From contig JAAOOA010000539.1 of NCBI GenBank assembly GCA_012861695.1, positions 225,766 to 289,765 on the forward strand: a DNA stretch of 64,000 nt, in the 5' to 3' direction. Positions 9,196-45,886 of this stretch are shown here, piece after piece. The stretch comes from Trematomus loennbergii (taxonomy: Eukaryota > Chordata > Actinopteri > Perciformes > Nototheniidae). Below the pieces are notes generated by a model. The model ran no database searches, was not told the origin of the DNA, and saw only the letters and a program-made list of their open reading frames with translations. How positions within the stretch are numbered: position 1 is the first letter of the stretch; each line of letters starts with the position of its first letter. Both the position numbers and the translations under genes were made by a program.

Positions 9196-9223
9196 TTCAC
9201 CTCTCAGTGACTGCGAGTGTCTG

Positions 9224-9235
9224 AGTTTCACTTCC
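9224..9235 (-). promoter_or_regulatory. Interferon-response-like element upstream of TRIM copy A
   Basis: On the gene strand it reads GGAAGTGAAACT, 11 of 12 positions of the ISRE core GAAANNGAAACT, about 30 bp before the ATG. Interferon induction is established for many finTRIM genes. Copy B has a one-base deletion here that changes the spacing. The role is inferred from sequence only. Confidence 0.4.
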
Positions 9236-9520
9236 TGAAACCTGAAACTAGTGTGAGTGTGATCTGATCATGTGAGTGTGCAGTGAATAGGGCCTGTCAG
9301 CTCATGCACTGGTTACACCCACCTCCAGCTACAGCTCTACAGGGGAGGGAACCAGGAAGTATGACGCAATTCATAAGGGGGAGCGTTGTTAAAGAGACAG
9401 TCCGCTCCAAAGTCCACTCTCACTGCTTCCTTCAGTAAATGTGAGAGTTTTCAGATCAACTGTGAAAACACAAGGTGCTTTGAGGCTCTCTCTCTGACTT
9501 AATGAGAGATTTCTGCGAGT

Positions 9521-23563: not shown

Positions 23564-23567
23564 CTTG

Positions 23568-24117
23568 TATTAGAAGTATTCGATGTTCTCGCGTCCAGGA
23601 GAGGAGCTTAGAATGAAGAGACTAATGGAGTCTCCGAAAAGGTTCAAATTGGTGAGTTTAATTAAATGGCACGATGATACAACAAGCAGAGGGTAAGGGA
23701 AAAGACAAAGCCGGTGTCTTCAGGTAGCTGCAGCAAAGAAGGAGTCCTGAATTGTCCTCTGCCGTTCCCTTTTATCCTCTCCTCGTTCCCTCCCGCTGTG
23801 TCGATAGGGGGTACGTCCTCCTCGGTCTTCGATGTTTGACATCGCGTAAAACAGAGGACTTTGATATTCTGTATTCCCTGTCTACTTCCTTAAGCCTCTT
23901 CTCCTTCTTATCTCTTTCATGACTTTCTATTTAATACCTTGTAAACAGCTGTAAGTTAGTTTAAAACATTGTTCGCGACATGCTACGTACTGAAGGATTT
24001 TCAGAATAAAAGCTCGGCATTGAGAACTTCCGGGTTTTTTCACAATAAAACAGCTTTTAAAACTGACGATATATTTTAGACTAATTATGCTATTAACATT
24101 GATTTTAATTTCTAACA
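23568..24117 (-). repeat. 3' LTR of E1 (550 bp)
   Basis: On the minus strand it starts TGTTAGAAATTAAAATC and ends with CTTCTAATA. It contains a TATA-like GATAAAAGG on the minus strand near 23768-23776. It differs from 32147-32695 mainly by small indels near 23579, 23718, 23813 and 24033. Confidence 0.9.
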
Positions 24118-24148
24118 ATCCCTCCTTTCACACCATTTAAGGTGTGAA
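24118..24148 (-). promoter_or_regulatory. Polypurine tract of E1 with adjoining hairpin
   Basis: On the minus strand, AAAGGAGGGAT runs directly into the LTR start, as expected for the plus-strand primer. Immediately upstream is a perfect 8-bp hairpin (TTCACACC and GGTGTGAA with a 6-base loop). The same arrangement recurs elsewhere in E1 and E2. Confidence 0.7.
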
Positions 24149-24496
24149 CACAATACTGAAATTAATGAGTTCTTCATCTGAACTTTGCATAGTACATAAC
24201 TCATATCAAAAACATACAATCAGAATGGAATGGTTTAAATAACCGTCATCAAAATACAAAAAATACAACAAGTAAAAAAATACTTTGGCTGGTCTTCAAT
24301 CATAAAAGTTTTCTTTGTGCATAACTTCTAGTGTTAACCTTCAATATCATGAATAGCACCACTTAGCTTGGTATCAGAACATTTCTTACTCCCTCCTTTC
24401 ACAGAAATCCTTCTCATACTACATTCAGTGTTAAGGCACTTGTTTTTACAAAGTATAAAAGAAACAAACTTTTTTTTTTTTTTTTAGAATAGTACA

Positions 24497-24612
24497 AAGT
24501 AAATAAAAATACACCATCTTGGAATAGTATAAAGTAATAAAGAATACACCATCTTGGAATAGTATAAAGTAATAAAGAATACACCATCTTGGAATAGTAT
24601 AAAGTAAATGTC
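24497..24612. repeat. Short tandem repeat in E1 (35-36 bp, about 3 units)
   Basis: 'ACACCATCTTGGAATAGTAT' followed by 'AAAGTAA(T)AAAGAAT' repeats three times with small length changes. It is non-coding. Confidence 0.85.
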
Positions 24613-24824
24613 ACTGATTCCCTTCATATTAGCATTGTAGCTGGTTCTTCTTTCAAATGATTTCATCATTTGAAATATCACATCATTTGGACAATCTCAT
24701 CATTTATCATCCATATCATTTAACATCATTTACACACTGTTATCATTTTCATCAATCTCTGTATATGGGTTGGGTCTTCTTGTTCTGCTAGTAATTGAAA
24801 TGGTTCCCTTATGAGAAATTTACC

Positions 24825-24857
24825 CTCCCCCCTTTCATACTTTTTAAAGTATGAAAG
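24825..24857 (-). promoter_or_regulatory. Hairpin plus purine tract module in E1 interior
   Basis: A C/T-rich run (CCCTCCCCCCTTT on the plus strand) abuts an 11-bp-arm palindrome (CTTTCATACTT...AAGTATGAAAG). The architecture is the same as at the 3' purine tract, but the arm sequence differs. Function unknown. Confidence 0.6.
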
Positions 24858-25299
24858 TAATATGTTCTCTAGAAAAGGCCGTGGTGATCAATCGGTACGT
24901 TAGGGTGCGGGTACATGGAATGCAACTACAACCCCTAGCACTCCCCTATGCTATCCTTGTACACTGTGGAGCCTAAACTCCCTCCTTTGACTGGTCTCCT
25001 AGCCCTACTGGTTTTGGGGTGTTTCGCCATGTTGATTAACTGCCCCACTGTCATTGGTACTGCATATAAAACATCACTGGCTGTACAAGTGCACAGGTCC
25101 CGTCCAATCCTGTGGCAAGACTGCGTACAAGGTTTTAGTTCCATGATACCATCAAACATCTACTCTGGGATACGGCATTTCAGACAGTCATTTCTGGGAG
25201 AGGATTTTGGTCAGTTACAACAATTGGAGAATTTCATCACTTATGGTTCCTACTTCATTACCTTTTGTGGTCTGTTCTAATGCAGTGATGGTTCCTTAA

Positions 25300-27450
25300 A
25301 TGGTGTGAAAACCGGTGGAATATCAATAACTCATTATACTAATTTATCTTCAATTCTAGTCTACTTAAAGAACTATGCTAACCCCTTTAACAGTGTGTGG
25401 AACCTGGGTGTCCGAGCATGTAACAGTTACTCCCTCCTTTATCAAGGTTTTAAAAACAGAAGTTATTTCATCAATGGTTTGTAGTTCAATTTAGGAATTT
25501 TCACTTATGGCGGATATGTTTCTACTTTAAATAACATCTCTAAATTTCAGGTCATCCCTGATTAAATGGATGACCATCAGGAGGTGGTGGCGCTTGTCTT
25601 TTAAACTCATAATTTGGTGCCGTGCGCTCCCTGTGAAGCTACAAGTAAGATTTAAAACAACTGCTGGGTGGGTTGAGTGACCCCTTCTCTCTAAACGATA
25701 TGGGTTGTCAAAAATATGCATCATTGCAATGAGTGATCCAAGGCCCCGCATGTATTACTCCCAATTATATTGCTTTTTCCAAAATTAAATTTGCAATCGC
25801 TCTTTGCCCAGTGTCCTTTAAAACTCTACATCTTGGACAAACAAATGTTATTTCCACCTTAACAGTTCTCCTATGGTAATAACTATGCTACAATGGCGAA
25901 AACAATACTTTAGATTGGGATACTATATTTGGCTTGGTATTAGCTCTCCCTTTAACATTGTCCAACAAACACAGATTTGTCTGTTCTTATAGAGTGGTCA
26001 CTAAAACTATCCCTTTAGCTGTAGATCAATATTGTAACACATTAGATCTCTACCAAATTCACCCATGAATAAAATCTTTAGGGAATAATTCGTTTACATG
26101 ATGGAAAGATTGAAAAATATGTTCTACTCTGTACTCCTAAGTCCCACACTCACTGCTTAAAGTGTAAAGTGTGGTGAATATTTCCATCAGTCTACCCCTT
26201 TATCTCACAGTACCCTCAGTGTGTTTTAGGATTATTTCCTCATTTTACTTTAACAGTTTCCTCTTTATTACTATTTTAATTTACCAATTTATTAATTCAT
26301 GGCTAATAAATCTTTTTGTCTTTACGTATTTATCAAGTCAATTCAAGTTTGTTTGTGAATAAGTGTGTTTATGTATAAACTCACTCACGTTTTCCTTTTC
26401 TCCTCCTCTTGTTGTCTCAAGCCACGACCCCCTCACATTCTGTTAGACCATGCCAACTCCTCTGGTTCCGTCTTCTCCTCAGTCCATCAGCTCTTAAATC
26501 CTTTCGCTGGTACTCTTTTCAGTGGCCCAACTGCTTTGCATTTCATCTCCTTCTTTACAGTCTCTTCGCTGTTGTATGGAGGGCGTATTCTGCTTTCATG
26601 TCCCACACTCTGCTCTTGTGCCAAATCTCGTGGCTCAGCTTGGAACTTCATGTCCTGGGTTAGGGACTGATGAGAGTATGCCTCTTTATGTCAGCATGCT
26701 GTTCTGGTTCTGGATGCCGCAGGTGGAGAAGGTTCTGGATGCAGTCTTGTCGTTGTTGGTTCAGCTCTGGTTCCGTCTGTTCGATGGAGGAGGAGGAGGA
26801 GGAGTCTCCTGTAGTGAGGTCTTTTGTCTGATAGGGGTCGTAGCAGTCTGACAGGCAGAGAGAGAGAGTCCAGGTCTCGGGACGCATTACCTATAGAAAT
26901 TCTAACACACTGAGGTAAAGTAAATCTAACCTTCTCCACTCTATTTCTAATCATACTATCTGTTTTAAATGTTAAATGCCATCTAAACACATTAATGTCT
27001 ACTAATAAATGTACTATATCTCTAAACATTGTTTTTTCTCCCACTGTAACACATCTACTCCAAATAACTCTTTCAGGAAACCATTTTCTTCTATAAATTG
27101 AAATACTTACATGTTTCAAGCACCACATGTTTCACACACTATAAAAGGACGTCCATATATTCTCCAATATGTTAAATCTCACTATTACTTAGACAATAGT
27201 AACTTTTGTGACTAGATACATCTGTGCACAGTCGCCACAATCTGTTGGGGAATTTTGTTCATAGAGTTTGTACATACAGTTGTCCTCGTGGGTTAGTACC
27301 CTGTTTCTACTGTAATAACTTTTCAATAATTTTGCTCAGGTCACCAGTCCATAGTCTTAAGGGGGTGTTTCTGGTACAGACTAAAACATGGATCCAGTGT
27401 ATTTGGAGATTCCCCTAAATTGTAAATCCCCATCACTTAAATATTCCGAT
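25300..27450 (-). other. E1 interior: decayed 3' region shared with E2
   Basis: No intact gene. Segments match E2 in the same order, for example 'CAGTGTGTGGAACCT' (25393 and 41439), 'TTTAGATTGG' (about 25909 and 41580) and 'CCATCAGCTCTTAAATC' (26484, with E2 at 42190). A short minus frame at 26660-26887 ends in a Ser/Glu/Gln-rich stretch without recognised family. Some minus-strand fragments between 27130 and 27420 could be eroded envelope sequence, but stops interrupt every frame. Confidence 0.45.
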
Positions 27451-27453
27451 CAC

Positions 27454-27930
27454 TTAAACCCATCTCATCATTTGATACAAGAACTGCATATAGGGGGGGT
27501 GAATGATCTTGATTGTAACCTCCTCATCTTTGGGAACGAGTATTTCTAACTCCTCTTGTTGCTCAACTGATCTTTTGGCTCTGGGGATAAGTGAAAGTCT
27601 CTGAAACACAGCTGGTGTTTTGTTAGTGATGTGGGCATTTTCTACGAGTGAACTAATGGATCCATGTCTTTCATGATATTGTACTCCCCATCCAACCAGA
27701 AAGGTGCCAAGTGTAATGAGCACAATCAACAATGCTATTCTGACTCTTATCCTTAGGGGACCCCACAATTGCTTTGGCTTTGTTCTTGACATAATCTCTA
27801 TTTTATCCATGGTTTTGTCAGTTACAGAATGTAAATGATGAGTACAAAAATAACGTATACGAAAATAGAAACAAACGTTGGACTCTTTTTCAGGTGAAAA
27901 AACAAAATAGGTTTTCACTTTAGTGTACAA
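27454..27930 (-). pseudogene. Envelope-leader-like fragment of E1
   Basis: A 158-codon frame. A likely start is the internal Met at residue 41 ('MDKIEIMSR'). A basic stretch precedes one strong membrane segment (about residues 61-82, 'ALLIVLITLGTFLVGWG'), followed by an ectodomain start and a basic 'RAKR' at 117-120 that resembles a furin-type site. This layout fits the membrane-anchored leader of a retroviral envelope protein. The rest of an envelope is not open. The call is based on architecture and position 3' of gag; I recognise no specific envelope family. Confidence 0.4.
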
Positions 27931-28447
27931 TCTATAAAATCTAAAGACAATTCGTCTTTTGAGCTGTTTCTATCTTAATCGTATTTATATTTATTGTTTT
28001 GTTCCAGCTCTGCCAAATCAGTCCTAGCTTCCAATAATTTTCTGGAAGTTGCCAGTGAAGGGTGACAATGTGTGAGGTGGTGTCAATTTGCTCCTTTTTC
28101 TTTACCTTTAAACCGGAGCGCGTGTGAAGTTCATTACAACTTGTCACGGTTCCGACCACCGGGGATCAGCCCACTCTGTTTTGGGAACTTTCACCCTCAC
28201 CCAATCACCTGGCCGAACAGGAGTCTCTTCTGATGTCTCGTCTGGTATCTGTGCAGTTTTTCCTAGCCTGTGTAGACAAAACTTGGAAAATATTACTCAG
28301 AGCTCTGACATATTCATCCACTTCTATTTGTCTAATATCTAAAACTAAGCTTTGGTATACCTTTTGTTGTTATGAGACCCATTGTTGACAACATGTTATT
28401 TATTAACTACAACGTCACCGAAATCAATATATCTGTATAATCATGAC

Positions 28448-28476
28448 GCTCCCTCCTTTGAGCATAAAATGCTCAA
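28448..28476 (-). promoter_or_regulatory. Hairpin plus purine tract module in E1, mid-element
   Basis: CCCTCCTTT (plus strand) abuts a perfect palindrome with 8-bp arms (TTGAGCAT, AAA loop, ATGCTCAA). It lies between the gag and Env-like fragments, a position where a central purine tract would sit. The role is unproven. Confidence 0.6.
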
Positions 28477-29115
28477 TTAATATTGCAATGATTACTGAAT
28501 AGGACATGGAAAACCCATACGTTGTAGTAAATAAATATAAATTCTCCGTGTGCCCCACAAGGCGTACAAAGATGTTGTGTGATGTATCGTCTTCCTATGT
28601 TATAAATGCATATTCACTAACAATCTTCCATTAGCACAAAAATAGTTTACTTGTTAGTTCTATAATGGCTTTTGTCATGGTATTCTGTATCATTGTTGCG
28701 GAAAAAAAACAACACCCTTGGTTTTGCTAATGCGTCTCAATAGCTCTAGGATTAGAGGCTTGGCTGACACTGCTGAACAAAGATATCATGACAAAATAAT
28801 ATTTCTTTAAACTAGAGGGAAAGTACGGACTATTCCCACATAATTGTTTGGCTCCTAAAAAATAAATAAAAACTATACTTCAACTAACAATGAATGAAGT
28901 TCCCCCTTTAAACACAGCCCGCTCTTCTGACGGGGTCTATCTATGTTGTGCCAGTTTCTGTCGCCCTGTCACTGTTCTCCCGCCAACAGTCACTCTCTAG
29001 TTCTGCTGGGTTCTGGTTGACTTCTTCACTGGTTTGAGACAAGTGGTTCCTATCGAAACACCTCCCTTTGTAGCCAGACTTCACCACAGCAGAATCGGGT
29101 TTCTGTTTTCAGGTC

Positions 29116-30099
29116 TCAACAGCTCCACATCAGGTGTATCTTCGCCCCTTGAACTGCAGTCGGTGTAAAATAACATTCCACCTCTCCTCCCTGTGGTGAC
29201 AGATATGGCTCTATGTGGCTGGATTTCAAAATGTCCTTCTTCATATTTGGACATCCTGTTCCTCTTTGACATCCCTGGGACCCCCTGCCTCTGTTGTAGT
29301 CATGGAAACCTCCTCTGGGGTAACTGTGTGGAGGGCCATTGTTTGGGGCTTGTTGCTGTGTGGTGCAATGTTCCAGTAATTGTAGCATCTTGTGTTGCGG
29401 ACAATCTCTGGACCAATGGCCCATTTGGCTGCAACAGTAACATCCCTCAAACCGGAAACGTCTTCCACCTCTTCGTTGATTCTGCACCTGAATCTCAGGC
29501 ACTACCTGAGTTTGAACTGTTGGAGGTGTCTGGCCTGCCTTCTCTGGTTCTATGGTTATCTCTGAAAGCTTCTCCTCCCTTCTCCTTGTGTTGTTCCTAC
29601 AAGCCTCTGTGTCTTTCTCCGCTACCTGTATCTTCAAAGGTCTTAGTTGTAGCGCTTCCTGCTCTGTCTTTTGTGTTTCTCTTTCTCGTCGTCTTTCTTC
29701 TGCGAATTCTACTCTCACTGGCAGGTCTGCTATTCGGACCACATTTATGCTGTCTGTCAATAGGCTGGCATATTCCAGATCGAGTATCAGACTTGTAACT
29801 CTTGTAAACCTTTGTTCAGCTTCCCTCCATACATTTAGCTGTTGTAGGCATTGTTCATGTTCATAGTCTAGTACTGCTCTTCTATGGGCTTTTGTTGGTC
29901 CAGGTTGATTATCTGCTGGAATCAATCCTCTTGTTTGCCACTGTGTCAACAATTCCTGTTGTTGTTTCCAGCTCTTCTGTCTCTCATTTGGATGTGTTGT
30001 AGCATCTGATCTGATGTTTACCCTTTCCTTGATATCTGCAGTTGAGCCTGGAACTGCGAATGCTCTTAACTTAGTGTCTTTTGGTGACATGTTTCTCAA
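29116..30099 (-). pseudogene. Gag of E1, capsid missing, zinc knuckle kept
   Basis: Gag is the structural polyprotein of retroviral particles. This 327-codon frame starts 'MRNMSPKDTKLRAF', closely similar to residues 11-24 of E2 gag, and the resemblance continues for about 85 residues ('ADIKERVNIRSDA', 'QTRGLIPAD', 'GPTKAHR'). A charged helix-forming region follows (about 125-180). Then comes one CCHC zinc knuckle at residues 220-233 (C-x2-C-x4-H-x4-C, 'CYCCSQMGHWSRDC') and an Arg/Gly-rich tail with an RNA-binding look. The capsid and major homology region present in E2 are absent, so an internal deletion has joined matrix-side sequence to nucleocapsid. After the knuckle no protease follows. 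The start was chosen by alignment to E2. Confidence 0.7.
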
Positions 30100-30214
30100 A
30101 TACTAGGATGAAATTACTAAATTATCAAAGATGTATTACTAATCCTCTGAATAGTACCTTTGTATTCCTTTATAAAAGTATCCTATGTCTTCAGTAGTTA
30201 ACCTTAAAGCAGTT

Positions 30215-30420
30215 TTTTTTTTTTTTTTTTAATTATTAAAGTAAATTAATAATTAAAATTATAAAATAAAATGTGTGTGCATGAGATTATGCAAATGTTA
30301 TAAAATGTAGAAAGATAAAAAATGTGTGTGCATGAATTATGCAAATGTTATAAATGTAGAAAGATAAGAAGTGTGTGCATGAGATTATGCAAATGTTTAT
30401 ATATTATTAAATGTGTGTGA
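30215..30420. repeat. Poly-T run and about 60-bp tandem repeat upstream of E1 gag
   Basis: 'GTGTGTGCATGAGATTATGC' with 'AAATGTTATAAAATGTAGAA' repeats about three times at 30270-30400 with indels, after a T18 run. It is part of the E1 leader. Confidence 0.75.
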
Positions 30421-30639
30421 TGAAGTATGTGTTATCTATAACACGTGAGGAATAAACTTTGGCATATAATTGTAATTCTGCAACAATTCTGTACAACCAG
30501 TAGAGTGCGCTGTTGTAGTTTTCAGTTCTGCCAGCAGGGGTAGCTGTTCTGAAACTGACTTCTATGTAACAAGGTTATTTTTCTAAAAAATACCTTTGAA
30601 ATGGGAAGGAGAAACAATATTATTATTATTATTAAGCCA

Positions 30640-30785
30640 GCCAAAACACCTTTGCGAACACAAATATTTCAAAAAATCAGATTGGAAGGCAAAACACAAT
30701 ATGATTTGAACAGTAATGCATAAGCAAGCCAAAAACACATTTGCCAAACACAAATATTTCAAAAAATCAGATTGGAAAATTTAAC
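30640..30785. repeat. Direct repeat in E1 leader
   Basis: 'ACACAAATATTTCAAAAAAT' plus 'CAGATTGGAA' occurs at 30658 and 30748, each after a 'CCAAAACAC' motif. Two copies about 90 bp apart. Confidence 0.75.
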
Positions 30786-31299
30786 TCCACAATCTGTGAA
30801 AATACAATAATCTTTGTTTACAACCACCAAAGTCCAACAACAATATGTATAGATAACCTGATTTAGCAAAAGACTAAATCCAACTGAGACAAGAAGAATG
30901 GTTTTTTTCTTCACAAGATGGAGGTCAGATAAAGGGCTTGGCCTCATGGGTTACAGGGAGTCCTGAAATTTGCATTTCACGAAATGGCAACTGCCCTGCT
31001 TTTCCTTGAAATGAGGTCAAAACAAGATGGCTACTGATTATTTCAAACTCTGACCTCCAGAACAAAGAGATGTTGAAATTTCACCATGTGGTTCTCATGG
31101 ATGAGATTAAATAATGGCTAGTGATCTTTAAATGGACATAATGGAAAACTGGTTCAGTAGAGCAAAGTTTAAAAATACAACACAAAACTACACTTTATAT
31201 ACAAAATAACATTTCTATCTAGTTTACTATGAATATGGGCTTTATCCTAGAGATACCTTATTTTAACATGAGGGCCCTTACGTCATCGGCCAATGACGT

Positions 31300-31800
31300 A
31301 ATATTTGACTTTATAGTCCTGTGATTATTTTGCTGTTTAAACACGCAATAAATGGGACCAAAATGGGACGCTATTATTAATATCTAACGCACTTCCCTTC
31401 GTAAACCACCCGCAATGTCTTGGAAAAACACACAATAGTATAATCACCTTTATTGTCCTTTAAACAATTTTATGGTTGCCCCTAGCAACTGTATTGTCCT
31501 TTTAAACAATTTTATGGTTGCCCCTAGCAACTGTATTGTCCTTTTAAACAATTTTAGGTTGCCCCTAGCAACTGTATTGTCCTTTTAAACAATTTTATGG
31601 TTGCCCCTAGCAACTGTATTGTCCTTTAAACAATTTTATGGTTGCCCCTAGCAACTTTATTGCCTGGTGATTATCTGCTGGTTTAAACACGCACTTTAAT
31701 GGGACCAAATAGGACGCTATTAATACGCATTATAACGCACTTCCTTCGTAAACCACCCGCAATGTCTTGGAAAAACACAATAGTATAATCACTGCAACTT
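31300..31800. repeat. E1 leader: 42-bp array (5 units) between two 130-bp direct repeats
   Basis: Unit 'TTAAACAATTTTATGGTTGC' then 'CCCTAGCAACTGTATTGTCC' repeats from about 31450 to 31665. Each unit holds the self-complementary GTTGC...GCAAC. The array is bracketed by direct copies of 'TTTAAACACGC ... GGGACGCTATTA ... CCACCCGCAATGTCTTGG' (31315-31435 and 31675-31795). It lies about 350-850 bp downstream of the primer site on the minus strand, where packaging signals usually lie. Confidence 0.85.
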
Positions 31801-32126
31801 TAACACCTGTAGTGTTTTCAAATCTTTGTTAGAAGCATGCAGTGTTAGTGAACAATGAAAAGAAAAAATAGACTCACCCTGCTTGTCCTACAATAGCGCC
31901 ACGTGTTGTCTATGCTTCTTAATTTAGCTTGTTAACATTAAAATGCACAGTTATTCTCCGGATCCGCTGGCCGCCATCAAACACACAAACTTAAAGTTTC
32001 CTGCAAGCTAGTGAAGATTTGATTTAACCGGTTCTTCTTACCACTGTGTGTGAGCTCTTTGTTGTCTGATGGAAAGGCTGCGGGTCCGTTGAACAGCTGG
32101 CTTGGTTGGATCTCCCGGTTCGACGA

Positions 32127-32144
32127 GTCCCTGTGTGGTTGCCA
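32127..32144 (-). promoter_or_regulatory. Primer binding site candidate of E1
   Basis: On the minus strand, two bases after the LTR, is TGGCAACCACACAGGGAC. It begins TGG as primer sites do and lies at the same spacing as the E2 site. I could not match it to a particular tRNA. Confidence 0.6.
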
Positions 32145-32146
32145 AC

Positions 32147-32695
32147 TATTAGAAGTATCGATGTTCTCGCGTCCAGGAGAGGAGCTTAGAATGAAGAGAC
32201 TAATGGAGTCTCCGAAAAGGTTCAAATTGGTGAGTTTAATTAAATGGCACGATGATACAACAAGCAGAGGGTAAGGGAAAAGACAAAGCCGGTGTTGTCT
32301 CAGGTAGCTGCAGCAAAGTAGGAGTCCTGAATTGTCCTCTGCCGTTCCCTTTTATCCTCTCCTCGTTCCCTCCCGCTGTGTCGATAGGGGTACGTCCTCC
32401 TCGGTCTTCGATGTTTGACATCGCGTAAAACAGAGGACTTTGATATTCTGTATTCCCTGTCTACTTCCTTAAGCCTCTTCTCCTTCTTATCTCTTTCATG
32501 ACTTTCTATTTAATACCTTGTAAACAGCTGTAAGTTAGTTTAAAACATTGTTCGCGACATGCTACGTACTGAAGGATTTTCAGAATAAAAGCTCGGCATT
32601 GAGAACTTCCGGGTTTTTCACAATAAAACAGCTTTTAAAACTGACGATATATTTTAGACTAATTATGCTATTAACATTGATTTTAATTTCTAACA
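32147..32695 (-). repeat. 5' LTR of E1 (549 bp)
   Basis: Almost identical to 23568-24117. The minus-strand start is TGTTAGAAATTAAAATC at 32695. A TATA-like GATAAAAGG lies near 32348-32356 on the minus strand. Confidence 0.9.
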
Positions 32696-32699
32696 CTTG

Positions 32700-33652
32700 T
32701 CAATCTTAATCTGAAAATACAAAAACTGAAATATAGGTAAGAGAAGAAACTGACACTTGCCTTTCTTTGCCATCTTTTCTTCAGAAGACTTTTGTGATGT
32801 AATTCCCTCAATGCAGATCACACATGGACTGATCCATTATTTTAATTTAATAGGAGGGTAAATGGTATGGCGTGACGGGGTTGAAACAAACTGAGGGACG
32901 TGTGTCAATATTGCAATTTCATAGATAATTCAAGTATTTTTTCAGAATTTCTTTTTGATCAGTTAAAGTTGACAAGCATATGATTATATTAGCAGCAACA
33001 TTTTGGGATAATTGGCCATTTTGATTTGTTTAATATTAAATTAATATGTAATAATGCTTAGTGAGGAAATATGTCTGTCTTCTTCTAAGACAACCAATTT
33101 TTTAAAAACAACAAATATATATATATATATATTTAGTTTTACATTGTAATGCAAAACAACCTGTTCCATTAATTCATTGCCCTAAATACATTTTGTAGTT
33201 TCCTTTCATTTCAAATTGTTGAAGTAAGCTTGGGGGACTCAAAGGGCACCCGATTGTTTGTCTGAACACCTGGTTCTCTTGTGAATTAAGAACACTTGTG
33301 TTAGGGCATGAATTAACAATAAATAGGTTATATACAGTATAAAATACCACGTACTGTCCGCCCTCCCATGCCACCTTGGCATGACCTCTTGCCCCTCCTT
33401 TGAGGGAAATTTGGGTAAACTGGTCACAAAAATGTATAATATTTTTCTAGTTCTCTACCTGTGTTTTTAATTCTTGTTTTTATGCACCATGACACCAAGT
33501 CAAATTCCTCGTAGTGTAAACCTACCTGGTAAAAACCTGTTTCTGATTCTGATTCTGATTCTGATTAACTACACTAATGGTGAGCTGAAATATTGTACGT
33601 TTATCTAAACTAAAACTATTATTTAGAAATCAGATCATTAATTTCTCTAAGG
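32700..33652. other. Spacer with a retroelement tail
   Basis: About 33430-33568 ends in (GATTCT)n after 'CTACCTGGTAAAAACCTG', a tail type of fish non-LTR elements on the plus strand. The remainder is AT-rich with an AT microsatellite (33115-33132). No gene recognised. Confidence 0.5.
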
Positions 33653-34649
33653 TACAATGCCATGTTTTTTTATTCTGCTGCAACGCAAACATTTACCAAA
33701 ATTAGTATCAATAAAGTCCTTCTTATCTTATCTTATCTTTATCTCTGAATATTCTGTTGTGCAAATAGTCTTCAAGTGAAAGTCTTTTGACAATAAAAGC
33801 ACCGTCCAATTACAATCATTGCACCGGTTTTTACATATCTATGAATATGTTGACATACATACAGTGTAGGTAAGTGGATTGTGTTATATTTAAAGGTCAC
33901 CTATTATGCTCAAATGTCCCTGCATGATGAAAAGTGTGTGAAATGAAAGCAATGAGCTGTTTCACAGGTGACTGCCTCCCTCTAGTGGTACAGAACAATA
34001 AAGGGATGTTCTTACTCCAGCAAAACATCAGCTGATCATAAATCATGTCCACACAGGTTACAAAAATACACATTTAAATACATTTCGAACAATATTTCAC
34101 ATTTATTCAACGCTCAATGCTCACTAAGGCTAATGGTGTTGCTTCTGTGTTAACCACCATGCACTCTGACATTACTGTGCATACTTTTCTACATTATATG
34201 CAAACCACCACCTGTTCATGTTTTTATGAACCACACTCTGTGATTATGGAGCTGTTTATATTGAATATGCAGCTTTTGTTATGATTGCATCATAGACTTT
34301 TATATGCAGTCTCTGTACTTTTTTTTATTGCAAATTCGGTAAGGGATTTCTCCAGAAAAACTCTCATCTTGTATTCCTCTAATTCAGCAACTTGTGGGAT
34401 AGATTAGGGGGGGGGGGTTTATGTAAATTGTAGTGGTTTATAAGAAGAGGCAAACCGTGCATAAAAAGGTGAAGTTTGTCGCAAAAGTAAAACATATCAC
34501 TGATATAAAATAATCTCTTCATACTTAGGGTCAATTTGATACAAACTCATGCTTAGCAGCCACACATTAGTCATATTTACAAGATACTAAGGTGAAATGT
34601 GAACAATTTAAGATGTAATTTGGATTTTAAATAAACCTGGATTACCCTG

Positions 34650-35218
34650 GTAACATCAGCAGGAGAGGACTCTTTAAAGTAGAGACACTACATACTGATA
34701 TACACCTGAACATCAGCAGGAGAGGACTCTTTAAAGTAGAGACACTACATACTGATATACAACTGAACATCAGCAGGAGAGGACTCTTTAAAGTAGAGAC
34801 ACTACATACTGATATACACCTGAACATCAGCAGGAGAGGACTCTTTAAAGTAGAGACACTACATACTGATATACAACTGAACATCAGCAGGAGAGGACTC
34901 TTTAAAGTAGAGACACTACATACTGATATACACCTGAACATCAGCAGGAGAGGACTCTTTAAAGTAGAGACACTACATACTGATATACACCTGGACATCA
35001 GCAGGAGAGGACTCTTTAAAGTAGAGACACTACATACTGATATACACCTGAACATCAGCAGGAGAGGACTCTTTAAAGTAGAGACACTACATACTGATAT
35101 ACACCTGAACATCAGCAGGAGAGGACTCTTTAAAGTAGAGACACTACATACTGATATACACCTGAACATCAGCAGGAGAGGACTCTTTAAAGTAGAGACA
35201 CTACATACTGATATACAC
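34650..35218 (-). repeat. 57-bp minisatellite, array 3 (about 10 units)
   Basis: Same unit and orientation as array 1, in the equivalent place of copy B. Some units read 'ATACAACTGAACATC' instead of 'ATACACCTGAACATC', a variant also seen as its complement in array 2. Confidence 0.95.
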
Positions 35219-35917
35219 ATTCATTTATTATTTTTCTTAATCCTAAAAATAAATAAAAAATGCAAATTTTATCAAATATTTTTTTAATAAAAAAAACAAC
35301 ACTGAGATTTTGTCCTCTTAGCTTTTTTTATTAACAAGAAAAACCCCAACATTTTATTTTGTACAGACATGTAAATGTGGCACTCATATCACATCTTGAA
35401 AATAGAAACACAATTTATTACAAACTCAACCTGTTAGCTTTTCTTTTAATGTGTTTTATTTCCTCTTCAAACTTTCATTTATGCATTCACACATTGAGAC
35501 TTAGTAACACATTGAAGACATTTAGAATAAAATATCTACAATGAAAGAAGCTCTGGGTGCTTTCTCTCTCTCATGCTTTACAAGAGAAACAACAACATAC
35601 AAATAAATCAATATCGATATTCAACAAATATTTAGAGCAAAGTTTACATTTCCATGCAGAGAAATATGAGTTGAGGTTAACAGAAATCCTCCTGAGCAGT
35701 GACAGCCTCCATGGCTAAACAGACACAGGAAGGAGCGCCGCCTAAAGAAACTCCAACATCTACAGAACAACTCATGAGAAGATGTTAAAGCACATCCCAT
35801 AATGTTTGATTGACAGCTGATCTCTGTGCAGTGAAGACATGAACAATCAGCTCTCAGCAACAATGATGGACACACAATGAGTTTAAGAAGTAGAAGAGTT
35901 CCTCAAATGACTTCAGC

Positions 35918-37639
<1,722 letters not shown>

Positions 37640-37885
37640 CTAGTGTGAGTGTGATCTGATCATGTGAGTGTGCAGTGAATAGGGCCTGTCAGCTCATGCA
37701 CTGGTTACACCCATCAGGAAGTATGACGCAATTGATAAGGGGGGAGGTTGTTAAAGAGACAGTACGTTCCAAAGTCCACTCTCACTGCTTCCTTCAGTAA
37801 ATGTGAGAGTTTTCAGGCTGATCAAACTGTGAAAACACAAGGTGCTTTGAGGCTCTCTCGCTGACTTAATGAGAGATTTCTGCAA

Positions 37886-38055
37886 GTATACCGTTGTATA
37901 TTATCTTTCCAGTCAGGCTGTTGTGATATAAGCAGAGTTGGAAAGTACATTTACTCAAGTATTGTAGCTCGGTAGTTATCAATATAGTTATACTTTACTT
38001 GAGTATAGATAATACACACACACATACTCTAAATGTGTTTCCCCCCCTTATGTAC
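37886..38055. repeat. Fragment of a common fish repeat
   Basis: 'AGTTGGAAAGTACATTTACT' and 'CAAGTATTGTA', then later 'ATACTTTACTTGAGTAT', form a partly self-complementary pair typical of a widespread fish MITE. Ends are not defined. Confidence 0.45.
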
Positions 38056-38653
38056 TGTTAGTGATTCTTGAACCCCGAGAGCAGGAGAGACTGAAAAGAG
38101 TCAAGGCAAGCTTATACAAGTTAACAGCATTTAATTACACAAAAGATGCGGTGGTTTACAAAAGAAATGTGCTCGTTGGTGATTTCTCCCTGCCAGCTGT
38201 TTTGGCCCGCGTCCACGCTGGGTCAGCTGGGGGCAAAGAGAGAGAGAGATCCTTCTTGGGTCTCCCGGGTAAGACCTGTAGTCTTCTCCTATTGGCCGGC
38301 CGTCGACGGGGGCGTGTCCAATGCAAATCCTGTCGGTTTCTGCTGCTAAATTACATCACTCTGATGTCTGTGGTCATCTAAACATTCCCTAATAACCCTC
38401 ATTCCAGCGTCAATAAATGAGTGTTAAACTCAGGGTGTTTAGTGTACAACATCACGTTATTTCACCTTCAATTCACGGTTTGAAAACGTAGCATTTCGCC
38501 ACAAGCTAATGCTAACCGGAAATGACGAAATTCACCAGCGGAAAACCGGAAGTCACATGTGAAATCTTCGGTTTTCAGAATAAAACAGATTTAAATGAAA
38601 TAGTGTATTTCATTCAAATTACGCCACATCAACATTGATTTTAATATCTAACA
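38056..38653 (-). repeat. 3' LTR of E2 (598 bp)
   Basis: Matches 45291-45750 closely over its first 450 bases. It then has a segment (38517-38653, with 'AAAACCGGAAGTCACATGTG') that the other LTR lacks. Confidence 0.85.
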
Positions 38654-39070
38654 ATCCCTCCTTTCACACCTTTTAAGGTGTGAACACAACACTGGAATCA
38701 ATGAGTTCTTCATAAAACTGCTTTTAAACTGACGGTATGTTTTAGACTAAATTATGCCATAAAACATTGATTTTAATTTCTAACAATCCCTCCTTTCAAA
38801 GTGTGAACACAATACTGAAATCAATGAGTTCTTCATCTGAACTTTGCATAGTACATAACTCATATAAAAAACATACTATCAAAATGGAATGGTTCAAATA
38901 ACAGTCATCAAAAATACAAAAAATACTTCGGTTGGTCTTCAACATAAGTTTTCCTTTGTGCTTAAACTTCTAGTTTTAACATTCAATATCACTTTTCAAA
39001 ATAGCAGCAATTAGCTTGGTTTTTACAATCCCTCCTTTCATACCCTTTAAGGTATGAACATAATACTGAA
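38654..39070 (-). repeat. Repeated LTR-end and purine-tract segments of E2
   Basis: 'AATCCCTCCTTTCACACC' with 'TTTTAAGGTGTGAACAC' (38654), a second LTR-end piece ending TTTCTAACA (about 38785) followed by 'ATCCCTCCTTTCAAAGTGTG', and a third module at 39027 ('ATCCCTCCTTTCATACCC'). Each is followed by 'ATGAGTTCTTCATCTGAACT'-type sequence. The region is therefore a stepwise duplication of the 3' purine-tract neighbourhood. Confidence 0.75.
39028..39058 (-). promoter_or_regulatory. Hairpin plus purine tract module in E2
   Basis: CCCTCCTTT abuts TTCATACC...GGTATGAA (8-bp arms, 6-base loop). Compared with the 38654 module, two arm positions differ and remain paired. Confidence 0.65.
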
Positions 39071-42000
39071 ATCAATGAGTTCTTCATCTGAACTTTGCAT
39101 AGTACATAACTCATAAAGGGTAGAAAATACAAATAGTAACTATACATATTTATCATAAATGCGAAGTTTTTCATTTGTGCATAACTTCTAGCTTAAACCT
39201 TTAATATCACTTCGTAAAATAGCAGCAATTAGCTTGGTATGGAAAACGTCGAACTCCCTCCTTTCACATCATATATATCATCTTCATACTGTATCTGGTG
39301 TAAAGGCACTTGTTCTTTCACAAAATATAAGAAGGATAAAACTATCTGAAAATATTACTCTTTATTTAAACAATCCTATCCTCTTCAGTGTTGCACACTC
39401 CCTTTTCCAACTAATGTCTAGCGCTATTCTATCGGTCTGTTTTTATGTGACTGTTTGTGTCATCCTTTTACTGTGTCTCTGGTGTGATTTAGGAATCTCT
39501 GCTGGTTATATCAGATATAGTTCTCCCCATCCACATTCTTGTTGGTTGTGGGACAGAGGAATATCATTCAGAACCTGCTGATATCTGAATCTTAATACTC
39601 GGCATATGTTACAAACAAAATAAAACATCTTCATGGTGAACTAAATAACATATTTCAATAGCTCAAATGTCTGATGAGCATCTGTGTTGTTCCTAAATAA
39701 AATCCTTGTAATCTTTTTCAAATCTAAATATAACAATGAACTATTCCTGTTTGTGGTAAAGACACACTAACGTTATGTAATACAATTTCATTATGGATTT
39801 AAAAACAACTGAAGTCATAATGCTGTCAGAGTGTGGTTTCCTGAGTGTATCTGTCCTATAAAAAGGTACGTCATTCTCTGCTTGGCTCGTGTGCAGAAAT
39901 CCCATCAGTTGCACCTGGCAATACTGCTTCTACCTGTCTATTATCAAGCTGAAAAATGAATACAGAATTCCAACATACTGTCATCAAATGTCTTTCTATT
40001 ATAAATTCAATGTATATCCCCATAATGACCTAAACAGTAAAGTCCATGGCTTTTACTTCTATTTCTTTACCAGGCTAGTTACAAGATGTTGTCTAAATTA
40101 AATTCTGTGTCATTACATTACTATGTTTTAGCTTAACTGTAATATGTTCTTTCTATATGTCAAACCTCAGTTACTCTAATGTCTGTTAAAATATTACAAA
40201 ATTGTTTCATTATCACAAGTCAACTTCTTTGGTATTCCATTCTGGAATTACATCTCTCACAGTAGCCCCTTGGCCACTGCATCTGTGTTACCTGTTCAAA
40301 ATGCAATCAATATTTAGAAACATGTCAACATTCATCAAACAGTATCTTATCCCCAGATATGGAGCAGGTTCATTCTAAAACTATCATTCAATGCTCAGTT
40401 TGAACATCTAGGTTGGGGCAGAAGGTTTCTTTCAATCCCTAAAAGAAAAATTTAAATTGTGAATTTGACAGCCATGTTGACATTATACATTATACACTCT
40501 CCCCCCTTTTTACACATGAACTCATGTGTAATAAAATCCTGAAATGGGGAGGAAAGAAAACTTTCAGTTACATTTTGGTTAGAGACATAGCAATTTTACA
40601 TCCATTATTATTATTATCTTTCCACAGTAAACACCTCAGTGAAAATAAGTGTTTCTCTTCATCTTTCAGTCCTAAAAGAAACAGAATCTTCAAATTATAG
40701 TTTGAGTTTTTCATTTGCAAAACGCCAACTCCTGTGGGAGTAAAATATCATCAAGTAGATTAGAAACGGGTCCCATGTGCGGTTTCCCATTTTTTGGAAT
40801 TATAGGAAACCTCTCGTTTCCCTTGGAGCTCCAAAATAATATGTTAGTCCAAAACCATGCTTGGTTAGTTATTGTTTTAGAATCATGCAGTTACACTGAT
40901 CACATGCCGGCATTCATTCACACTCATACCGTCTGGTTGTCAAGTCAAGTGTGGTCAGGTACACCCCAGAGTCAGTCATTGACAGTGCTTTTGTCACACT
41001 GTCAGTCAGGGTCAAAGGTCATTTGGTCTCGGTCTTTTGGCCATGTCGTGCTCTGCAGAGTCTTTACAGAGGTAATTCAGCATAGGCGGGTACCCTTTAT
41101 CTACAAAAATATGTCATATGCGGAGCGCCATTCCTTATTCATTCACGATTTCAACTATGATTTTCAAGATGGTTCTAACTTTTCATTGGGACTTCTGCCT
41201 CCCACCTTTCTTGAAATTTGGTACAAAATTCACTTCCTTATAGTACTACTACTGCAGTTTATTTACACCTAATTAGTATTAAAATGTCTAAAATATCTTT
41301 TCAGAAACGTATGTACATGTGGCTATTATCTTGAGTCAAAACATTATTAGGATCTGTGTAGCTCTGCATTTCATAACTCCTTATAATGTCACTTAAACCC
41401 CTTTTCTGGTCTACTTAAAAAACAATGTTAATCCCCTTAGCAGTGTGTGGAACCTTGGGTGTTCGAACATGCAGCAATTACTCCCTCCTTCATCAAGGAT
41501 TTAAAACAGAAGTCATTTCATATTTCCATCTTAAAGCCCTCCTATGGTGATAACTATGCCACAATGGTGAAATCAATACTTTAGATTGGAATACTATATT
41601 TGGCTTGGTCCTAGCTCTCCCTTTAACATTATCCATACAAATAAAGATGTGTCTGAATTTATACAGTGGTTCCTAAAACTATCCCTTTAATCTGTAATCA
41701 ATATTGTAACAAATTAAATCACCACTTTATTCACACATGAATAAGAATCTCTTAACGAACAATTTGTTAACATGATGGAAAGATTGAAGAATATAGTTCT
41801 ACTCTGTACTCAAACACCCACTGCTTAAAGTGTAGTGAATGTTTCCATCATGTCTCCCCCTTTATCCCTCAGTGTGTTTTAGAATGATTCTCATTTTACT
41901 TTAATAGTTTCCTTTTTACTGCTATTTTAATTTACCAATTGATTAATTCATGGTTAATACATCTTTTTGTCTTTGGTTAATACATCTTTTTGTCTTTACG

Positions 42001-42194
42001 TATTTATTAAGTCAATTCAAGTTCTTTAAATGTGGTCACTTTTATGTGCGTTTTGTGAATAAGTGTGTTTATGTGTAAACTCACTCATTCCCGTTTTCCT
42101 GTTCTCCTCCCCTGGTTTTCTCAAGCCGTGACCCCGGCCTCCTCACTTCCAATCGACCATGCCAATCCTCTGATTCTGTCTTCTCTTCAGTCCA
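39071..42194 (-). other. E2 interior 3' region, no intact gene
   Basis: Non-coding on the sense strand. It contains another hairpin/purine module (40499-40532) and blocks shared with E1 (from about 41395). A 185-codon frame on the plus strand at 40715-41272 is antisense to the element and shows no recognised domain, so I do not call it a gene. Confidence 0.45.
40499..40532 (-). promoter_or_regulatory. Hairpin plus purine tract module in E2, strong stem
   Basis: CTCCCCCCTTT (plus strand) abuts a 10-bp-arm palindrome, TTACACATGA and TCATGTGTAA with a 2-base loop. It is an unrelated arm sequence with the same layout as the other modules. Confidence 0.65.
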
Positions 42195-44042
42195 TCAGCT
42201 CTTGAATCCATCGGCTGTAACTTCCTCCTTTAATTCCTGATGTTTAGTGTCATGGTGAATGAGATGTAGTCTCCATTCTTCTGGGGGTTTCACTTCTAGT
42301 CCCACCACGTCTCTTAGGCGTTCCTGGACTGATTTAGGAAGGGCGTTAATGACCGCATTCTTCCACAACATTATGACAGCCGGAGAAGCGTCATGTCGTT
42401 CTCCAGTGCTGTCCTCCCACACTCCTTCACATCTCTTCAGGAAAGCATGCATGTCTTCCTCCGTTCCTTTTCTCAGGCTGTTGAGGGCTTGTAAACTGCG
42501 TGTTGTTGGGTAGATGCTACGAATAGCAGCCCAATACCTCGACCTGATTTGGTTGAACGAAATGTCATCTGGAGAGTTGGTGCATTTGGCCTTGGAATCT
42601 ACTGCTCTTGCCTCTAGTCTTCCTTCTATCCGTCCAAGCAGTGCCCTTATGTCTCCCAGGCACAGGTGGTCTTGGACAGTATATTTCTCCAGATCATTCA
42701 CCCACTTCTGTCCTCCTTGGGTGAGTGGCGGTAGCTTTGCCACTAATGATTCCATGTCCCTGTGAGCCCATGGTTGGTAGTCAAATCCTCCTCTCTCAGC
42801 CGCTATCAATGGCATGAAGGTATGTGCACTGGTCTTGGTTCTTCCAGCTTTGGGGCATGTCCCAGGGTATTCGTCCCTACTATTGTTCTCTGAGGGAGAT
42901 GCAAATCTGCGTCGTTGCTGTGACTGTTCTTGGTAGGGGGAGTATCTACTGGTTACAAACTGTGCACTGCCGTCGTCGTCATCTTCATCTCCTTTGGAAT
43001 AGTCTTTGTCAGGAGAGTAATTTGTTCGGCGTTTTGTTTGAGATTCTCCCCATTTTTGAGTTATTTGTCGTTTTCTTTCTTCCTTTATTTCTTGGAATCT
43101 TTCATCTGCAGAATGTGTTGGTTCAGGAGAGCAACCAGTTCGGTAATTTTTCTCTTCTTGCTCTTTTTCCCATCTTTTCCTTTCTTCTTGTTCTTGTCTT
43201 TGTCTTTCTTCCATTCTTTTGATGAGTTCTGCTTCCATTCTTTTGATGAGTTCTGCTTCCATTCTGATGAGTTCTGCTTCCATTCTTCTGTTGAACTCTT
43301 CCTCTCTGATGTGTTCTGCTTCCATTCTTCTTTTGAACTCTTCCTCTCTGATGAGTTCTGCTTCCATTCTGATGAGTTCTGCTTCCTTCAGCTGGTTGAC
43401 ACTGGATAGGATTCTTACCTCAAACGCCAATTCTTTCACATTTGGGGCTTGAATTGATGCTTGGTGAGAAGGGTTGTTCTCTGATATGTCGGGAGGAGGC
43501 ACTTCGGTCAGGCTTGGAAACTGCTTTGGAGTTTGGATAACTGGAGCCTCTTCTGTTATTTCTGCTGTGTCTTCATTTACTGGCAGATCTGCTGCTTCTA
43601 CCAAATGTAAGCTTGTTGTCAATCCCTTGCTGGCATATTTTAGATGGAGTATCAGACTTGTAACTCTAGCTTTTCTTTCTTCAGCTTTGTTCATAGCGCT
43701 TTTTTCAGGTCCATACCACGAGGGTCGTCCAGCTTTGATCCATGCCTCTTGCTGTTGTAGGTATTCTCCATTCTCATATTCAACTACTGCTTTTCTATGG
43801 GCTTTCGTTGGTCCAGGTTTATCATCTGCTGGAATCAATCCTCTCGTTTGCCACTGCTTGAACAGTTTCTCTATTCTGTTCCATGTCTTCTGTCTATCTT
43901 TTGGCGCTGTCATAGCATCTGACCTGATGTTTACCCTCTCCTTAATATCTGCAGTTGAGCCTGGCATTGAGAATGCTCTTAACTTAGTGTCATTTAGTGA
44001 CATATTTCTTAAGTAGTTGGATATAGTTATTAAATGTATCAA
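42195..44042 (-). CDS. Gag of E2: matrix side, coiled coil, capsid
   Basis: A 615-codon open frame, the longest intact retroviral frame in the window. The reading start at 44042 gives 'MIHLITISN'. A better start may be the Met at residue 14 ('MSLNDTKLRAF'), which aligns with E1. Residues 14-100 are conserved with E1 gag. Residues 215-298 are a Glu/Arg-rich coiled coil built of 'MEAELIR'-type repeats, encoded by a DNA tandem repeat (about 43200-43390). Residues 406-600 look like a retroviral capsid: 'YQPWAHRDMESLVAKLPPL', and a major-homology-like block G526-x2-E529-x4-F534-x2-R537. No CCHC knuckle follows: the frame ends and non-coding 3' sequence begins, so the nucleocapsid and pol have been deleted. 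The product could still be made if the LTR is active. Confidence 0.75.
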   Translation of the reverse strand: MIHLITISNYLRNMSLNDTKLRAFSMPGSTADIKERVNIRSDAMTAPKDRQKTWNRIEKLFKQWQTRGLIPADDKPGPTKAHRKAVVEYENGEYLQQQEAWIKAGRPSWYGPEKSAMNKAEERKARVTSLILHLKYASKGLTTSLHLVEAADLPVNEDTAEITEEAPVIQTPKQFPSLTEVPPPDISENNPSHQASIQAPNVKELAFEVRILSSVNQLKEAELIRMEAELIREEEFKRRMEAEHIREEEFNRRMEAELIRMEAELIKRMEAELIKRMEERQRQEQEERKRWEKEQEEKNYRTGCSPEPTHSADERFQEIKEERKRQITQKWGESQTKRRTNYSPDKDYSKGDEDDDDGSAQFVTSRYSPYQEQSQQRRRFASPSENNSRDEYPGTCPKAGRTKTSAHTFMPLIAAERGGFDYQPWAHRDMESLVAKLPPLTQGGQKWVNDLEKYTVQDHLCLGDIRALLGRIEGRLEARAVDSKAKCTNSPDDISFNQIRSRYWAAIRSIYPTTRSLQALNSLRKGTEEDMHAFLKRCEGVWEDSTGERHDASPAVIMLWKNAVINALPKSVQERLRDVVGLEVKPPEEWRLHLIHHDTKHQELKEEVTADGFKS

Positions 44043-44129
44043 AGATGAATCACTAATCTACTGAATAGTACCTTCTGTCCTGATAAAAAATATCCTATGT
44101 CGTCCGAACTTAACTTCAATATCTGGGAT

Positions 44130-44300
44130 TCTTTTTTAGTTTTTTTTTTTTTTTTTTTAATAAAAAATTAATAAAGTAAATTAGAAATTATGCAAATTTT
44201 AAAATCAGAAATAAAAAAAATAAAAAATGTACAGTGTATGGTTTTGACCTTTAAAATATGAAAATTCAAATAAACTGTGTACAGTGTATTCTGAAGTTTA
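44130..44300. other. Poly-T and AT-rich stretch upstream of E2 gag
   Basis: A T20-type run at 44138-44158 and A-rich sequence lie at the same place relative to gag as the poly-T run in E1 (30215). This supports collinearity of the leaders. Confidence 0.6.
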
Positions 44301-45270
44301 TGAAATTATGCAAATGTCATAACTACAATACTTCAATTCAGAGAAATCACATGTAATCTTTATCTGTGTGTGGTGAAGAATGTATTGACTGTAACACTTA
44401 TGTCCGCTAGGGGAGCTGTTCTATTTTTAACTCCTTTCAAATGTATCAACTAATACTTCCGGTTCATAAACCTAATTCCGGTTTATTTACCCAAATAAAG
44501 TTCAAATTACTTTCTTTGAAAAGCATGAAAAACAAAAACAACTTAATCTACTCTCAATGTTCATCTACACCATCCCTGTGTATCCACCATCCCAGTAGTT
44601 ACCAGTTGTATCACCTAGTAATGCCAACTGGCTAGCTAACTAGCTTAGCATTAACCTCATGTGACTGGGGGAAGGGGAGGGGAACAATGGGAACATTTGG
44701 TGCAATTGAAAACCACACTGCTTGAAACACTCCAATACAAACTTCATTTATCTTAGCTCTAAATTCTATAGATGCTGACCTTAAAAGCTGATCTTATACC
44801 AATCTTGTACACAATCTTTCCGGCTTAGAACATCACACAAAAATATACTTTTCGGCTTAAGAACTCCACACAATATACTTTATTAAACGAGACTACGCCG
44901 GTTTAACACATCAAACATATAAACTAACATGAACGGACCCAGTCCAGTGCTAAACAGAGCATGGCTCGTACCTCCCCAGAGATCTTAACACTATTTGGAG
45001 CCAGTCCAATGTAAACCAGATAATCTCTAGTGCCTTCCCAAAGGTCTTTAATATTCACATTAATCGGGCGGCGCCGAAGAAACACTATAAACAAAACCGC
45101 ACCACCAACGCTTGCACCTAATGTAAGTTATTTAACTATACAGTTTTTTAATTAAACAGGTAACTGTCTCACCTGTGATTTCGGCCCAGCCAAAAAATCC
45201 TCTATCTGCCGCCTGTTGTGATGCTAGTTAGCTGCAGCTTTCCTCTCTTCCAGTGGTGTCCAGTCTCAGA
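44301..45270 (-). other. E2 leader, non-coding
   Basis: No open frame of note. Two 'AGCCAGTCCAATG'/'CCCAGTCCAGTG' blocks near 44940 and 45003 with 'CTCCCCAGAGATCTT' and 'CTTCCCAAAGGTCTT' form an imperfect 65-bp direct repeat. It may include packaging signals by position. Confidence 0.5.
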
Positions 45271-45288
45271 GTCCACCCAGGGACGCCA
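45271..45288 (-). promoter_or_regulatory. Primer binding site of E2, tRNA-Asn type
   Basis: The minus strand, two bases after the LTR, reads TGGCGTCCCTGGGTGGAC. It matches the complement of the 3' end of vertebrate tRNA-Asn(GTT) at 17 of 18 positions, as I know that tRNA. Confidence 0.75.
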
Positions 45289-45290
45289 AA

Positions 45291-45886
45291 TGTTAGTTAT
45301 TCTTGAACCCCGAGAGCAGGAGAGACTGAAAAGAGTCAAGGCAAGCTTATACAAGTTAACAGCATTTAATTACACAAAAGATGCGGTGGTTTACAAAAGA
45401 AATGTGCTCGTTGGTGATTTCTCCCTGCCAGCTGTTTTGGCCCGCGTCCACGCTGGGTCAGCTGGGGGCAAAGAGAGCGAGAGATCCTTCTTGGGTCTCC
45501 CGGGTAAGACCTGTAGTCTTCTCCTATTGGCCGGCGTCGACGGGGGCGTGTCCAATGCAAATCCTGTCGGTTTCTGCTGCTAAATTACATCACTCTGATG
45601 TCTGTGGTCATCTAAACATTCCCTAATAAACCTCATTCCAGCGTCAATAAATGAGTGTTAAACTCAGGGTGTTTAGTGTACAACATCACGTTATTTCACC
45701 TTCAATTCACGGTTTGAAAACGTAGCATTTCGCCACAAGCTAATGCTAACAACAATCCCTCCTTTCACACCTTTTAAGGTGTGAACACAATACTGGAATC
45801 AATGAGTTCTTCATAAAACTGCTTTTAAACTGACGGTATGTTTTAGACTAAATTATGCCATAAAACATTGATTTTAATTTCTAACA
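45291..45886 (-). repeat. 5' LTR of E2, mosaic
   Basis: The first 460 bases match the 3' LTR. Then, instead of the same U3, it contains 'CCCTCCTTTCACACC...GGTGTG' (45756-45784), a purine-tract neighbourhood normally outside the LTR, followed by an LTR-end piece. The same arrangement is found at 38654-38785. Recombination across duplicated purine-tract segments explains it. Confidence 0.8.

Follow-up and report, generated by a model that had tools for sequence, protein, structure and literature searches.

Repeated polypurine tracts with adjoining hairpins in two long terminal repeat elements of Trematomus loennbergii

Plant Sireviruses (Ty1/copia) carry an average of four identical short polypurine tracts (PPTs) clustered before the 3′ long terminal repeat (LTR), and in 20 elements AT and then TG come after the terminal PPT; the left arm of an inverted repeat borders this terminal PPT and its right arm lies in the LTR, the upstream PPTs having no such repeat, and the authors propose roles in recombination and in helping primer formation (PMC2829016). 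Foamy viruses have four purine-rich motifs, A to D, one of which is the central PPT and two of which make up a Pol-activating RNA motif (PMC5035957, PMC6669543), and the PPTs of retroviruses and Ty1 are preceded by a T-rich stretch known as the U-box or T-box (as cited in PMC10085805). Here we describe two elements, E1 (23568-32695) and E2 (38056-45886), in a 64,000-nucleotide stretch of the fish Trematomus loennbergii (assembly GCA_012861695.1, contig JAAOOA010000539.1, positions 225,766 to 289,765; hereafter the window, numbered from its first letter). According to the element map, which was drawn from self-comparison of the window, both are young minus-sense LTR elements, and they contain repeated purine tracts, several of which are entered directly from a hairpin. 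Tracts are named here by the position of their first sense-strand base, and a hairpin with its tract is called a module.

As in Sireviruses, near-identical tracts are clustered before the 3′ LTR of E1 and E2, and the terminal tract is followed by AT-TG. The tract itself differs (AAAGG[AG]GGG here, AGGGGGAG in Sireviruses), as does its relation to the paired sequence, because the Sirevirus PPT lies in the loop of its repeat whereas in E1 and E2 a complete hairpin stands upstream of the tract; furthermore, internal tracts 24835, 28459, 39038 and 40509 have hairpins of their own, unlike the upstream PPTs of the plant elements. An outer repeat of the Sirevirus type, with arms of 8-9 bp, is borderline at three tracts that precede an undeleted U3 start (p against shuffles 0.068, 0.014 and 0.051), and the other nine of the 12 tracts give p values of 0.17-1.0. 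The Ty1/copia affiliation is not shared either, in that the named Gag relatives of E2 are fish proteins and no pol could be placed in either element. The foamy virus motifs lie in the 3′ part of pol, and no hairpin directly before each tract is described in the available parts of those papers (PMC5035957, PMC6669543); tract 28459 lies just before a weak integrase-like remnant, and no further pol was recognised in the frames scanned. The U-box shares with the module a position directly upstream of the PPT and an aid to priming, which for the module is a proposal (PMC10085805), but it is a T-rich stretch whereas the E1/E2 module is a paired stem. A first-pass annotation of the window knew of no described element with this arrangement, which goes too far given the multiple PPTs and terminal repeat of Sireviruses and the PPT motifs of foamy viruses, although the upstream hairpin at internal tracts does set E1 and E2 apart from what these sources describe. 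The layout is thus known in part; what appears new, as far as the open-access literature searched shows, is the complete hairpin before the tract and the presence of several internal tracts with hairpins of their own.

The minus strand of the window has 13 copies of AAAGG[AG]GGG and the plus strand has none; 12 of the 13 lie within E1 and E2, where all are sense and none antisense (dinucleotide shuffles: 0.20 copies on average and 2 at most across 300 shuffled sequences). Eight of the ten non-LTR tracts fall within ~1.4 kb of the 3′ LTR, five of six in E1 and three of four in E2. All seven places at which the first-pass annotation had reported a hairpin abutting a purine tract were confirmed, the hairpin on the minus (sense) strand running straight into AAAGGAGGG or AAAGGGGGG, but its list omits five E1/E2 tracts, including the E2 PPT at 38796. 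The perfect stems of the seven modules are 8-12 bp long, and in five of them the final AA of the stem doubles as the first two bases of the tract; four bases are shared in 24835 and none in 40509.

Short palindromes are common in AT-rich sequence, a point in favour of chance or biased composition as the source of this adjacency. A scan of E1 and E2 that ignored the tracts (perfect stem of 8 bp or more, loop of 8 or less) returned 11 perfect hairpins, and the four of these that do not abut a tract speak for chance, while the other seven do abut one. However, across both strands of the whole window a hairpin with a stem of 8 bp or more that leads directly into a purine run (at least 8 long with at least 5 G) is found only at these seven places. 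Of the 13 tracts, 7 coincide with the end of a perfect stem 8 bp or longer; per position, such stem ends have a background rate of 0.0023 on both strands of the whole window and of 0.0031 on the minus strand of 23568-45886. With homologous copies collapsed according to our own grouping, the count becomes four of seven loci (P ~3e-9 at the higher rate), or three of six (P ~6e-7) if 24835 counts as an ancient duplicate of the array unit. The stem rate at tracts, the strand bias of 12 to 0, the whole-window scan and the collapsed-copy P lead us to reject chance, which is hardly credible as the source of the adjacency seen at seven tracts.

The start of both LTRs of a retroelement is fixed by the plus-strand primer used in reverse transcription. 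Tracts 24128 in E1 and 38796 in E2 are followed directly by AT and the LTR TG, which is the position of a terminal PPT; both E1 LTRs start TGTTAG after the AT, and both E2 LTRs start with a segment designated U3a, so it was the tract before U3a that primed E2. The proposal that one copy is the true 3′ PPT therefore stands for E1, where 24128 ends two bases before the LTR TG, but the E2 sites at 38654 and 45755 lie inside lengthened LTRs and are not LTR-adjacent, that place being taken by 38796. Our preferred reading, with about even odds of being right, is that the module is a PPT with a hairpin on its 5′ edge that is kept in several copies per element; the internal copies would then be extra or reserve plus-strand start sites, and extra start sites were a sensible proposal of the first-pass annotation.

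Two other functions bear on the same evidence. The modules could be RNA motifs tied to binding or packaging by the element's Gag or Pol, as foamy viruses bind Pol through purine-rich RNA motifs in pol; copies are present across both elements, one of them near mid-element, and reverse transcriptase had no Pfam match among the 14 proteins or pieces scanned, a set that does not include every frame and in which one frame was entered twice and one item is the relative P0001 described below. The best-placed copy lies exactly at the PPT position, however, and the clustering of tracts near the 3′ LTR also weighs against this role, so that we regard an RNA-binding role as unlikely. Alternatively, the palindrome TTCACACC..GGTGTGAA could be a putative T-box (Brachyury-type) site acting as an LTR enhancer, with its adjacency to the PPT being secondary, since it fits the T-box half-site AGGTGTGA. 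The core GGTGTGA/TCACACC occurs eight times in E1 and E2, six of these in three modules, and the lengthening of the E2 LTR carried half-sites into U3. Nevertheless two of the eight half-sites (25308 and 39487) lie outside modules, and modules 39038, 24835, 28459 and 40509 are palindromic yet contain no half-site, such that the inverted pair of cores is present in three of the seven modules and absent from four. No paper joining T-box sites with bhikhari or with the palindrome was found in the open-access literature searched, and we think an enhancer origin of the palindrome highly improbable.

The modules are not all independent. A single unit is the source of those at 24118, 38654, 39028 and 45755 (tracts 24128, 38664, 39038 and 45765), of which 38664 and 45765 are one site seen in both E2 LTRs, and 38796 is a further copy of this unit with its stem shrunk to 4 bp. 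Since four of the seven modules copy one unit, the arm sets provide no more than four independent cases, and 24835 may, from its sequence, be an old relative of the same unit. Tracts 24399 and 39264 form a homologous pair that has the tract and no good hairpin.

Between homologous copies there is a compensatory change in 39038 relative to 24128/38664, and 24835, if homologous, shows two further paired changes relative to the unit. Covariation was judged from a table of arm swaps; MAFFT misaligned these short modules with different arms. When arms are exchanged between 28459, 40509 and the other five modules, 2-5 of 8 positions can pair, compared to 8 of 8 between arms of the same module. This result and the paired changes favour pairing that has been kept, as far as so few copies allow. 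The suggestion that structure is conserved over sequence is accordingly upheld in that the arms differ while pairing persists, and weakened in that four of the seven modules are duplicates and 5 of 12 tracts are hairpin-poor. Recent duplication of one sequence, which was to refute that suggestion, explains the same four modules, but 28459 and 40509 share little arm sequence. A history with no selection on the hairpin, in which one module was duplicated around the elements and copying enzymes corrected near-palindromes arm to arm, would suit the four copies of one unit and the resemblance of 24835 to them. It is distinctly unlikely, because the arms of 28459 and 40509 differ from the rest (2-5 of 8 crossed pairs) and the hairpin-free tracts 24399, 39264, 24988 and 25440 make spread alone a poor explanation of repeated pairing.

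Several observations weigh against a PPT that is defined by its hairpin. Five of the 12 tracts (39264, 38796, 25440, 24988 and 24399) have no good hairpin, and among them 38796, the tract that set the E2 LTR start, has only a 4-bp remnant whose collapse could have occurred before or after insertion; it set this start despite the full-hairpin module 38664 located 132 bp downstream. A strict requirement for the hairpin would therefore be too strong a claim. The terminal context is also uncommon, with AG following seven of the eight internal tracts (those outside LTRs and not at an LTR edge) and ATTG only 39038. RNA folding predicts the hairpin in all six modules folded (45765 was left out), but these folds are only moderately below those of shuffled sequences (z −1.6 to −3.3). 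Breaks in E1-E2 homology other than the three mapped joins discussed below have no obvious module neighbour. The flanks of E2, CCTC and GTAC, do not match, and because there is no matching target duplication E2 may be recombinant. Finally, the analysis of the modules rests on two elements, E1 and E2.

For the hairpin-bearing PPT itself, a mechanism can be outlined. The hairpin would help to define or hold a short primer, and it may form in minus-strand DNA immediately beside the primer template, where it could stack on the RNA-DNA hybrid and stop plus strands coming in from farther upstream; stacking together with strand blocking would be a reasonable mechanism. In minus-strand DNA the stem is predicted in six of six modules (again leaving out 45765), with 60-62-nt pieces at −5.4 to −11.3 kcal/mol, and RNA folds of the five hairpin-poor tracts do not improve on shuffled sequences (z +0.3 to +2.3). 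The full proposal, of a structured PPT family in which pairing is selected, the minus-DNA hairpin caps the primer, plus strands start at several places and LTR length shifts by PPT switching, is offered as a tentative possibility that we think less likely than not.

The LTRs of E2 show what a choice between tracts can do. Downstream of 38796 the order is U3a, the full module 38664, and a second segment, U3b, so that the length of the E2 LTR reflects the choice of tract and a second module has thereby been enclosed. U3a aligns to the start of the E1 U3 with 68 matches, 5 mismatches and 4 gapped columns, and to E2 U3b with 57 matches, 12 mismatches and 12 gapped columns; being closer to E1, it probably came from an E1-like RNA through template switching. 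The two E2 LTRs differ by 4 substitutions and 134 gapped columns, nearly all of the latter being a block absent from the 5′ copy, and this ~133-bp difference and the unmatched flanks suggest recombination between proviruses or a later deletion. By comparison, the E1 LTR pair differs by 1 substitution and 7 gapped columns, and E1 is flanked by a 4-bp target duplication, CAAG, at 32696-32699 and 23564-23567.

All three joins that we examined lie beside modules: the array join is at most 10 nt after tract 39038, the deletion is 6 nt after tract 45765, and the U3a join is 26 nt before hairpin 38684. The idea that modules are recombination hot spots thus has positional backing from three joins, the other breaks not being obviously so placed. 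Template switches could land on close and partly identical modules, and this would account for both the tandem units and the lengthened LTR. Coordinates of the modules, tracts and element parts are given in Table 1.

Table 1. Modules, tracts and parts of E1 and E2, in window coordinates
Feature	Position	Strand	Details
E1 3′ LTR	23568..24117	-	sense TGTTAG...CTAATA; 98.7% identity to 32147-32695
E1 terminal module	24118..24148	-	hairpin 24148-24127 (TTCACACC/GGTGTGAA), tract 24128-24120, AT, LTR TG at 24117
E1 tract, start of 3′ array unit	24391..24399	-	4-bp stem, no good hairpin
E1 internal module	24827..24857	-	12-bp hairpin 24857-24832; tract AAAGGGGGG then AG
E1 tract without hairpin	24980..24988	-	
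E1 tract without hairpin	25432..25440	-	
E1 candidate retroviral integrase C-terminal domain remnant	28147..28369	-	two frames; weak
E1 internal module near mid-element	28451..28476	-	8-bp hairpin TTGAGCAT/ATGCTCAA; tract AAAGGAGGG then AG
E1 gag-like open reading frame	29116..30102	-	CCHC knuckle
E1 5′ LTR	32147..32695	-	self-comparison, flanking target duplication
E2 3′ LTR	38056..38785	-	730 bp, lengthened; order U3a, module, U3b, rest
E2 module within 3′ LTR	38656..38684	-	10-bp hairpin; tract 38664
E2 terminal tract	38786..38807	-	tract 38796-38788 and AT, then LTR TG at 38785; hairpin reduced to 4 bp
E2 array module	39030..39058	-	hairpin TTCATACC/GGTATGAA; compensatory change relative to 24128/38664
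E2 tract, array start	39256..39264	-	no hairpin; homologous to E1 24399
E2 internal module	40501..40531	-	10-bp hairpin TTACACATGA/TCATGTGTAA; tract AAAGGGGGG then AG
E2 gag open reading frame	42195..44057	-	620 codons stop to stop; 67% over 95% to Gymnodraco acuticeps protein
E2 5′ LTR	45291..45886	-	596 bp; begins with U3a; ~133-bp block after module absent
E2 module within 5′ LTR	45757..45785	-	10-bp hairpin; tract 45765, LTR partner of 38664

Searched as a single sequence, the E2 Gag has 11 matches listed, nine from fish and two environmental, of which the Gymnodraco acuticeps protein is the best; an alignment query lists 20, of which 17 are named as fish and the last is weak. These matches were drawn from the best 7992 candidates (single sequence) and the best 7991 (alignment). 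A Gymnodraco acuticeps protein, P0001, is a Gag relative whose end resembles an integrase C terminus (Pfam match below the cut-off, E 6.6e-5), a layout that would fit the loss of most of pol from between Gag and the integrase-like end. In E1 the segment 28147-28296 matches MLVIN_C with an E of 0.046, below the curated Pfam cut-off, and 28208-28369 has no Pfam match. A short E1 open reading frame (ORF) at 27454-27969, between the integrase-like remnant and the 3′ region, possibly encodes an envelope leader; of 33 candidates four matched, all of them proteins of environmental contigs with 77-96% identity across 57-69% of the ORF, and there is no meaningful Pfam match. Two 18-base patterns had 0 matches in a viral contig collection searched for further copies; Gag relatives were likewise not confirmed there (9 pattern matches by sequence and 13 by alignment), and none was found among bacterial and archaeal contigs (74 pattern matches).

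Similar in layout are BHIKHARI/crestin and the lokiretroviruses, which are fish LTR elements with pol missing or mostly missing and a Gag of ~600 residues, as in E2 (PMC10996621, PMC9040795). No zebrafish protein is among the 11 and 20 Gag matches listed that would give a sequence link, and the word polypurine has 0 occurrences in the main text of either paper. The relation is a lead by layout, not by sequence.

The window also contains a 57-bp minisatellite in both orientations at 5577-6192, 10554-14056 and 34652-35218, with two of the three arrays located within a larger repeat (4599-6776 and 33653-35786, ~95-97% identity). A 96% identical duplication, 7402-9321 and 35775-37713, carries TRIM-like ORFs, the family being judged by eye, and the ORFs at 49296-50873 and 52370-53837 resemble, also by eye, a transposase-like protein and a Gypsy-like gag-protease.

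To our knowledge, how reverse transcriptase chooses its plus-strand primer from a long RNA-DNA hybrid is still not fully explained. An element that has both hairpin-bearing and hairpin-free tracts provides a natural paired comparison for primer choice. If the modules are PPTs, a vertebrate retrovirus-like element would join the plant Sireviruses in having the multi-PPT layout, and a change in which PPT is used can make an LTR longer, placing sequence new to it within its promoter region.

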